A stretch of DNA of 33,098 nucleotides, from the NCBI GenBank assembly GCA_903891335.1, contig CAITDX010000044.1, positions 1-33,098 on the forward strand, written 5' to 3'. The notes under the pieces are model-generated. The model saw nothing but the letters and a program-made list of their open reading frames with translations. It searched no databases and was not told the origin of the DNA. Position 1 is the stretch's first letter; each line of letters opens with the position of its first letter. Position numbers and translations under genes: made by a program. Positions 5,142 to 7,346 of this stretch are shown piece by piece. The DNA is from an uncultured bacterium (GTDB lineage Bacteria; Patescibacteriota; Microgenomatia; UBA1400; PJMF01).

Positions 5142-6182
5142 TCAAAAGGTGACTGCGTCAAAAGCACGTAATGCTTTTTGGACTGCAAACAGCTGAATAG
5201 TAGGGTTGCTACTAGCATCAAAAAAACTAAATGAAGCAAAGGGGCCAGGGCTACCTTTCATAATAAATGGCGTCACGGCTTTGACCCGAGAATCGATCCA
5301 AATATATCGAAGCGCATATAAATAATACTCAGACAAATAATAGTTGGTCAGATACGAAGATGCCCAGCCAGTTTCGGTAATAAAAACTTTGAAGTCATAG
5401 CCGGTTTTATTTTTAAGCCAAGTCAGTTCATGTAAAAATCCCCGCAATGAGTTTTGGCCAGTACGCTTGGGTGAGGCAGCAAAATCTGGATTGGGATATG
5501 AGTGTGAGTTCCAATAGTCAATCGTGTCAAAGATATCAGGATCGAAATGTACCATACTCTCCAAATAGGCGAAAGCTTCCCGAGTATCTGCAGTATTACT
5601 CGCTGCCAAATCCATCGCTGCTGGCAAAATTCTAAAGTTTCGCTCCTCAGAACGGAACCAATCGCTGGTAAAACGCAAAATTGACGCATAGAGGAGAGGA
5701 TCGAGTCTATTACCCCATTCTTTGGCATGATTAACTTCATTGAAAACAATCACAAATTTCTCATCCTGACGCCAATCCAAACTCGATAAAAAACGAGCTA
5801 AGTCAGTAATATCGCGTCGCGTCGGAATTTCCCAGGCTCCAATTTCAGGGTTGAAGCGCGTGCTTAAGCGTACAATAGGGATGAGCTTGAGTCGGTAAGC
5901 CTCGTCAAAGAATTGTTGCCACTCAGTCCGCTTACTCAAATCATCTAAAGTTACGGGAATAGTCACATAGCGCCATTCCTCATCTGTATATACTCGACGA
6001 ACATCAGCAATTTCACCCGGATGCAAAATATGCATGCCTAAGACATTACCTGTGTTAGCATTTGCTGCAGAAGGCCAAAACAAAGTTGCGCTCAAAAACC
6101 ATAAGGATAAGCCCACTCCAACACTCATGTAAGTGCGAAAAATCCCGGCTATATGAGTCAATTTTGATTGATAATTAGGCAT
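5142..6182 (-). CDS. Secreted clan GH-A-like glycoside hydrolase
   Basis: 346 aa. Residues about 20-42 form a signal peptide or anchor ending in ANA. The rest resembles a TIM-barrel glycosidase of the GH-A type: an N-terminal strand with a GMHIL motif, then VIVFNEVNHAKEW with Asn148-Glu149 (the NE pair expected for the acid/base), NSHSYPNP around His227, and FKVFITETGWASS with Glu270 (the expected nucleophile), followed by a barrel-closing strand AVTPFIMKG. The two glutamates lie in the order and spacing typical of the clan. The substrate cannot be told; a polysaccharide of the cell surface or of a host is likely. The gene is divergent from the lysozyme-like gene at 6227, with promoters packed in the same 45 bp. 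Confidence 0.75.
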   Translation of the reverse strand: MPNYQSKLTHIAGIFRTYMSVGVGLSLWFLSATLFWPSAANANTGNVLGMHILHPGEIADVRRVYTDEEWRYVTIPVTLDDLSKRTEWQQFFDEAYRLKLIPIVRLSTRFNPEIGAWEIPTRRDITDLARFLSSLDWRQDEKFVIVFNEVNHAKEWGNRLDPLLYASILRFTSDWFRSEERNFRILPAAMDLAASNTADTREAFAYLESMVHFDPDIFDTIDYWNSHSYPNPDFAASPKRTGQNSLRGFLHELTWLKNKTGYDFKVFITETGWASSYLTNYYLSEYYLYALRYIWIDSRVKAVTPFIMKGSPGPFASFSFFDASSNPTIQLFAVQKALRAFDAVTF

Positions 6183-6226: not shown

Positions 6227-6898
6227 ATGCAAAAGTTCTTCTTTGTTTTTAGTTGGTTTTTAGTATCAGCTGCAGCAGTACTTGTTGGTGCTTCAGCATA
6301 TAGTTTTTATTTCCTAGCCCAAGCCAATGGCGCACCCTCTCGCTTCGAAGGAACACAGCTGCAAAAAATTGCTGCTGCCAACCCAGCCAACCAAGGTGAT
6401 AGCCTACTGGTCACCACGATCATCGAGAGTGAAGATGCTCGAGCGGAACTCGTAGCTAAGTTTCTCGAACGTCACAACTCACCCATGCAACCTTATGATT
6501 ACTATGGTCGCAAACTAGTTGAAATTGCTGATCGCTATCATATTGACTTCCGCCTCCTGCCAGCCATTGCCATGCAGGAATCCAATCTCTGCCGCAATAC
6601 CAACCCCGGAGCTCCCAACAATTGTCTTGGCTTTGGGATTCATAAACGCGGCACCCTCGACTTTGATAGCTATGAGGCAGGTTTCGAGCGAGCCGGGAGA
6701 GAATTGAAAGCCTATTACATTGACCGTGGCTTGACTACTGTCGAGCTCATCGAGAGCAAATACACTCCTAGCAGCAATGGCTCCTGGGCCAGTTCAGTCA
6801 ATCAATGGATGGCGGAAATGCGCTATGACGATCGCCAGTTGGGGAGAGAACTCAAAGACAACACCAGCGTCACTGAATTTGCCAAACCAAGTCCTTAG
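6227..6898 (+). CDS. Membrane-anchored lysozyme-like (lytic transglycosylase/glucosaminidase) protein
   Basis: 223 aa with an N-terminal transmembrane segment (about 4-32) and an exported domain. Residues 90-200 look like a lysozyme-fold peptidoglycan hydrolase: a helix VEIADRYHIDFRLLPAIAMQESN with the probable catalytic Glu118, then NNCLGFGIHKRG, DSYEAGFERAGRELKAYY and SWASSVNQWM, a pattern shared by small transglycosylase/glucosaminidase-like proteins. Cys122 and Cys133 could form a disulphide outside the cell. Expected role: cleavage or remodelling of cell wall, perhaps of a host cell. It is divergent from the glycosidase gene, suggesting related surface functions. The fold is well supported; exact bond specificity is not. 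Confidence 0.75.
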   Translation: MQKFFFVFSWFLVSAAAVLVGASAYSFYFLAQANGAPSRFEGTQLQKIAAANPANQGDSLLVTTIIESEDARAELVAKFLERHNSPMQPYDYYGRKLVEIADRYHIDFRLLPAIAMQESNLCRNTNPGAPNNCLGFGIHKRGTLDFDSYEAGFERAGRELKAYYIDRGLTTVELIESKYTPSSNGSWASSVNQWMAEMRYDDRQLGRELKDNTSVTEFAKPSP

Positions 6899-6953: not shown

Positions 6954-6981
6954 TTGATTATCTTATAATATTTGATATAAT
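6954..6981 (+). promoter_or_regulatory. Strong promoter of a candidate small RNA
   Basis: TTGATT (6954-6959), 16-nt spacer, TATAAT (6976-6981) preceded by TGA (extended -10). This is among the best promoter matches in the window, yet no start codon with a plausible reading frame follows. Transcription is expected to start near 6988. Confidence 0.75.
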
Positions 6982-6987
6982 ACCCAT

Positions 6988-7064
6988 TAACTCAGAAGGT
7001 TATTCCTCACCGGGATTTACGTTCTGAGATCAAAACATCCCACTAAAAAATGGTGGGATTTTTT
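6988..7064 (+). ncRNA. Candidate stand-alone small RNA of about 75 nt
   Basis: This segment has its own strong promoter and its own intrinsic terminator, and no open reading frame. The 5' domain closes with the perfect helix CTCAGAA (6991-6997) / TTCTGAG (7022-7028), with an internal TCC/GGA mini-helix in the loop. An A-rich linker (ATCAAAACA) leads to the terminator hairpin. It does not match 4.5S RNA, tmRNA, 6S or a riboswitch class that I can recognise. No gene in the same orientation starts within about 430 nt, so it is unlikely to be a leader. The RNA gene is inferred from promoter, structure and terminator; function is unknown. Confidence 0.6.
7037..7064 (+). terminator. Intrinsic terminator of the small RNA
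   Basis: Stem ATCCCAC/GTGGGAT (7037-7043 with 7053-7059), loop of nine bases, and a run of six T (7059-7064). It also lies downstream of the convergent gene at 7092 and may stop transcription from that side. Confidence 0.85.
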
Positions 7065-7091
7065 GTGAAAGGTCAAAAAATGTCAGAAAGA

Positions 7092-7346
7092 CTAGGAAAA
7101 TTGCAGTTTTTCAGTAACTCTCCTCAAAAGATCATTGAGAAAAGCATCATTTTTTAAACCAATTCGCTTGACATATTCTTCCCAAACAGCTCTGTGCTTT
7201 TTTGCTTCAGCTACAATTGCATTAAAACACTCACCTTGATCCTGTCTCTCCATCAACACCGAAACTCGATAGTGACCAATTTTCTGGTTAACCAAGTTGG
7301 TGCATAGATCAAGAGGTGATAAAAGCTCTAATGGTTCTTCCGTCAT
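7092..7346 (-). CDS. Small hypothetical protein downstream of tRNA-Leu
   Basis: 84 aa, not recognised. It is a soluble, mostly helical protein with no signal or membrane segment: an N-terminal acidic leucine-rich part (TEEPLELLSPLDLC) and a central helix (CFNAIVAEAKKHRAVWEEYVKRIG). The reading frame continues upstream into the tRNA-Leu gene, so the ATG at 7346, the first one after the tRNA terminator, is chosen. It follows tRNA-Leu by 28 nt, with a terminator between, and its promoter is not obvious. It could be a real small gene or a chance frame; the balanced composition favours real. Confidence 0.5.
   Translation of the reverse strand: MTEEPLELLSPLDLCTNLVNQKIGHYRVSVLMERQDQGECFNAIVAEAKKHRAVWEEYVKRIGLKNDAFLNDLLRRVTEKLQFS

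Follow-up and report, generated by a model that had tools for sequence, protein, structure and literature searches.

Promoter-proximal attenuators, both the amino-acid leaders and the protein-controlled ones, have a common layout, namely, a promoter, a short 5′ terminator hairpin, and then the gene. Listeria SreA exemplifies the trans-acting RNAs that derive from riboswitches, namely, terminated leader RNAs that may act away from their gene. The c-di-AMP riboswitch ydaO/yuaA sits upstream of cell-wall hydrolases. Small regulatory RNAs of the CPR/Patescibacteria are nearly undescribed, and our literature search for them found nothing on the subject.

Here we analyzed a stretch of 33,098 nucleotides, referred to as the window, from an uncultured bacterium of the lineage Patescibacteriota; Microgenomatia; UBA1400; PJMF01 (contig CAITDX010000044.1 of assembly GCA_903891335.1). 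On the sequence evidence, one spot in the window encodes a member of a previously uncatalogued RNA family. Like the attenuators, distant members of this family have a promoter that is separated from the gene by a terminator hairpin, and in one group (f20) the ribosome-binding site lies within the hairpin, a further shared trait. Unlike the attenuators, the family lacks a leader peptide, shows no alternative antiterminator helix, and has hardly any RNA beyond the hairpin, and the copy in the window has no downstream gene. The family resembles SreA as a terminated leader RNA with a possible action away from its gene; in contrast to SreA, the RNA lacks an evident ligand-binding domain, and its free-standing form has lost the gene entirely. 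The likeness to ydaO/yuaA is that of a leader RNA tied to peptidoglycan hydrolase genes, but that riboswitch is much larger and structurally unrelated, and the element has no Rfam match.

Results

A preliminary description of this locus, made from the letters alone, had read a promoter (TTGATT, 16 nt, TGA-TATAAT), a 7-bp closing helix (CTCAGAA/TTCTGAG), and an intrinsic terminator around about 75 nt without a reading frame. All of these are present where it had placed them (Table 1), and the helix continues inward beyond a conserved G.G mismatch. The listing of open reading frames shows no gene-like frame over the RNA, the nearest ones ending at 6898 and 7092. With its own promoter and terminator and without an open reading frame, the element has the makeup of a stand-alone bacterial sRNA. 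The fold of 6985-7070 has an energy of -32.5 kcal/mol, compared with -15.4 ± 3.0 kcal/mol for shuffled sequences (z = -5.77), and none of 200 shuffles was equally stable. Among relatives, the stem sequence of the terminator is free to vary, with the hairpin and T-run retained.

Table 1 Features of the RNA locus in the window
Feature	Position	Strand	Details or basis
Sigma-70-type promoter, extended -10	6954-6981	+	TTGATT 6954-6959, 16-nt spacer, TGA 6973-6975, TATAAT 6976-6981
Spacer element CYTATAR (here CTTATAA), conserved, possible operator	6962-6968	+	Frequency in RNA promoters versus other sites
Predicted small RNA, ~75 nt	6989-7064	+	5′ end estimated from distance to the -10 box
Core hairpin	6991-7028	+	Covariation and fold
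P1 closing helix	6991-6997 / 7022-7028	+	CTCAGAA / TTCTGAG
Inner helix past mismatch	G6998.G7021 mismatch, G6999-C7020, U7000-A7019	+	Core hairpin
Short P2 and apical loop	7004-7006 / 7013-7015; loop UCACCG 7007-7012	+	
Separate intrinsic terminator	7037-7064 (stem 7037-7059, T-run to 7064)	+	
c0a, membrane-anchored GH73/glucosaminidase-like peptidoglycan hydrolase	6227-6898	+	Profile matches; conserved upstream neighbour

The same description had proposed a new small RNA that matches no known family, suggesting an Rfam search and a test for compensatory changes among relatives, and naming as grounds for dropping the proposal either a match to a known RNA family or a lack of both conservation and transcript. 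The sequence comparisons yielded neither outcome. For the window and ten related loci, no Rfam 15 family reached its gathering score on the element; only tRNAs reached threshold. The best sub-threshold matches were STnc590 (score 23, cutoff 100) and Phe_leader (score 22.3, cutoff 55), whose likeness is confined to the AT-rich start region or the terminator hairpin; both scores lie far under the cutoffs, and the matches seen at a permissive threshold were dismissed as chance level. No earlier description of the RNA was found in a literature search that covered mainly papers available without subscription.

A plain BLAST search with a 141-base query detected homologs of 75-91% identity in over 20 genomes, with compensatory changes in the closing helix; such conservation shows that the element is not a product of chance. 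In a MAFFT alignment of the window's family, the closing helix shows 10 two-sided changes (0.9 in shuffles). The MAFFT alignment A3 holds 80 two-sided cells (23.6 in shuffles) and gives the fairest single test. Alignments A1, A2, and A3 are not fitted to the structure; A4 is. P1 is present in the minimum free energy fold of all 83 copies tested. The helix is thus supported by compensatory base changes, as befits a structured RNA.

Covariance models extended the distribution. According to model R1, 37 of 42 genomes in the window's family carry the RNA; the other five are exactly those without the upstream hydrolase gene c0a, some of them being incomplete assemblies in which joint loss looks the same as joint missing sequence. 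With model R2, it was found in 56/88 genomes of the window's order and in other orders of the class. Among 374 genomes sampled from the class, model R3 matched 134, with one copy apiece; as covariance-model E-values are only approximate and weak copies escape the search, this figure is a lower bound. The same model had no match among approximately 348 genomes of the phylum's other classes, which doubles as a control for false positives. The lack of an Rfam match, the conservation across the class, the covariation, and the conserved promoter all support the original proposal of a new small RNA.

A second, weak match to the RNA model in one genome (L296:4413-4452 in G037) has neither promoter nor T-run and is probably a chance hit or a degenerate copy. 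A genome-wide search with a DNA pattern of the two arms was abandoned because it returned mainly unrelated matches. Among these was a palindromic repeat, GTTTTGATCTCAGAA-N-TTCTGAGATCAAAAC, dispersed over 21 of the stretches examined from a single Actinomycetes MAG (isolate RYN_51; L006, L007, L008, L013, L019, L021, and other JAODBJ01 loci), which is unrelated to the RNA. One record, CP011212.1 (G021; L032/L157), is titled TM6 bacterium GW2011_GWF2_28_16, yet it groups in the window's genus; its locus has a G+C content of 36%, and the title looks misassigned.

The hairpin combines a constant core with freely varying parts. A comparison of 65 copies showed changes at nine of the ten P1 pairs, on both sides in seven cases, and an invariant G12-C51. 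Position 11:52 is G.G in 33 of these copies, G.U in 31, A-U in one, and G-C in none. The core GGU/AC(G/U) is kept throughout the RNA family. A riboswitch, which would have a conserved ligand-binding pocket, usually in a multi-helix domain, was considered and rejected: the RNA is one hairpin whose apical part varies, and only its GGU/ACK core is fixed. Other families have a shorter form, a single hairpin AGATCC-NNN-GGT...CCTCACCGGG...TAC-NNN-GGATTTTTT that runs directly into the T-run, at times on the opposite strand.

The profile of the c0a family matches a LytB-type endo-beta-N-acetylglucosaminidase and a phage cell wall hydrolase in the PDB, and 3 of 12 members match Pfam Glucosaminidase. 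The gene is found in nearly all genomes of the window's order and, in 32 of the 33 loci that were aligned, precedes the RNA. However, cis action on c0a is not required, as the RNA lies on the strand opposite c0a in f3, f7, and one f10 genome and is unlinked to it in two others (G041 and G083). On its other side, c0a adjoins a divergent gene (5142-6182, minus strand) that is conserved in 28/33 loci, has no Pfam match, and looks like a secreted glycoside-hydrolase-type protein.

It is conceivable that the hairpin is nothing more than the c0a terminator and overlaps the next gene's promoter. Indeed, c0a often extends into the promoter or stops just ahead of the hairpin, so that the hairpin can also end the c0a mRNA. 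However, the promoter precedes the hairpin and does not follow it, a GGU/ACK core with a non-Watson-Crick pair would have no reason to persist in a terminator, and the hairpin is on the opposite strand in f3, f7, and G071, which together make this explanation improbable.

In most of the distant families, the hairpin begins at approximately +1 of a promoter that is strong and conserved, runs out into T's, and directly precedes c0b, a second, paralogous hydrolase gene. Ending in a T-run, the hairpin is itself an intrinsic terminator. The typical distant order is c0a, promoter, hairpin, T-run, and c0b, with c0a directly upstream of the hairpin in 36 of the 55 loci examined. A terminator hairpin between promoter and c0b, the arrangement of an attenuator, was found in 48 of these 55 loci, nearly all of which are from other orders. 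In many loci, the gene after c0b looks like trigger factor. The P1 arms are nearly invariant in the c0b-bearing families. In a further family, f12 (L214, L218, and L221), two tandem hydrolase genes flank a CYTATAG-type promoter without the hairpin.

In f20, the start codon of c0b lies 7-9 nt past the AGGA of the P1 3′ arm in 11 of the 12 loci with c0b. As little but T's separates the two, no other promoter fits between them, and the ribosome-binding site lies inside the stem. AAGGA is enriched 5.5-fold ahead of starts in the loci of the window's order, which makes AGGA a plausible Shine-Dalgarno sequence. Its burial cannot be general, since c0b starts 20-190 nt downstream in many families.

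Most of the window's order lacks c0b, yet the RNA is retained there. The window's own copy was rejected as an attenuator leader, as the next gene and a tRNA lie on the opposite strand and the genome has a single hydrolase of the c0a type.

Discussion

The sequence comparison shows the RNA family, its structure, promoter, and synteny, and the absence of c0b; a mechanism can be proposed on top of these. In the c0b-bearing families, the hairpin would most likely act as an attenuator: transcription would by default yield only a short terminated RNA, with c0b made solely upon opening of the hairpin or read-through. In f20, the hairpin would additionally bury the c0b Shine-Dalgarno sequence AGGA. 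In the window's order, c0b would mostly have gone and the RNA stayed as a stand-alone molecule of ~75 nt. As c0b is mostly absent and a dedicated second terminator is present in the window's family, the RNA there would act only as a free molecule. It would probably engage the same partner as the leader, most likely an RNA-binding protein, through the GGU/AC(G/U) core; this core being unchanged in the leader and the free RNA, it is simplest to suppose that both bind one partner. We give an even chance to the reading, drawn from sequence comparison, that an attenuator-type leader of c0b became a stand-alone sRNA that is probably recognized by a partner at its core.

The direction from leader to sRNA is suggested by the distribution of the two forms, not by a dated tree. 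The alternative, an RNA that was free at first and later came to lie between two hydrolase genes, is conceivable. Another possibility is that the RNA is a decaying, functionless remnant of the lost c0b leader. The loss of c0b from most of the window's order, with the hairpin sitting at the place of its leader, would agree with this. However, a remnant would decay, whereas the RNA is kept in 37/42 family genomes with compensatory changes, and its promoter, loop, and core are conserved, together with a separate terminator; the chance that it is a remnant seems almost negligible.

The apical loop raises a different possibility for the free RNA. C-rich sRNA loops in Firmicutes pair with ribosome-binding sites, and the UCACC(G) loop of the window's order could do so with mRNAs, making the RNA a trans-acting base-pairing sRNA. 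This loop is nearly invariant within the order despite a freely changing P1, and the RNA is free-standing there, as would be expected of such an sRNA. However, its complement GGTGA is not enriched at starts near the RNA (ratio 0.54; 3 of 355 starts, local genes only), a different loop is present in three of the four f11 copies, and outside the order the loop varies and is not conserved class-wide. In addition, the c0a mRNA appears leaderless in the window's order, with TATACT just ahead of the c0a ATG in the window, and would thus have no ribosome-binding site to block. We regard base pairing through the loop as the less likely role, and retain recognition of the core by a partner as the preferred reading.

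From a biological perspective, the RNA is conserved across many families and flags a wall-hydrolase locus of possible importance to growth on host cells. The forms within the family may be lined up as stages of an evolution from gene leader to free RNA, and the RNA is compact and testable, with a covariance model that can be used for annotation. More tentatively, and with some doubt on our part, an attenuator leader of a hydrolase gene may have escaped to become an autonomous RNA whose core is read by an undescribed RNA-binding partner controlling wall remodelling in ultrasmall bacteria. If true, the escape could be traced within one CPR class.

Finally, the promoter of the RNA is conserved in all families. 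Its CYTATAR spacer element occurs in 50 of 72 RNA promoters and in 6 of 244 other promoter-like sites of the same loci, a contrast inflated by shared descent. A pattern of the promoter alone gave 19 matches in 94 genomes, 15 of them at the RNA, and its reversed control gave none; this search also recovered four RNA copies below the model threshold, again beside hydrolase genes. One could also imagine that the inverted repeat at the start site is a DNA operator instead of an RNA structure, as the near-invariance of the P1 arms where c0b is present might indicate. Against this, the spacing of the arms varies by more than 10 nt, the arms covary, including G.U pairs, the T-run is on one side only, and the CYTATAR element is a better operator candidate; a DNA operator formed by the hairpin arms is thus very improbable. 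In several families, a second CYTATAG-like copy approximately 23 bp upstream suggests a regulator site. CYTATAR-type promoters also precede a few other genes (L327, L331, L332, and L325), among them one for a large secreted protein (G470) and one for a small membrane protein (G151), and a regulon is possible. The open reading frame at 7092-7346 was considered as a partner of the RNA and set aside, being conserved in only 2 of 42 genomes.
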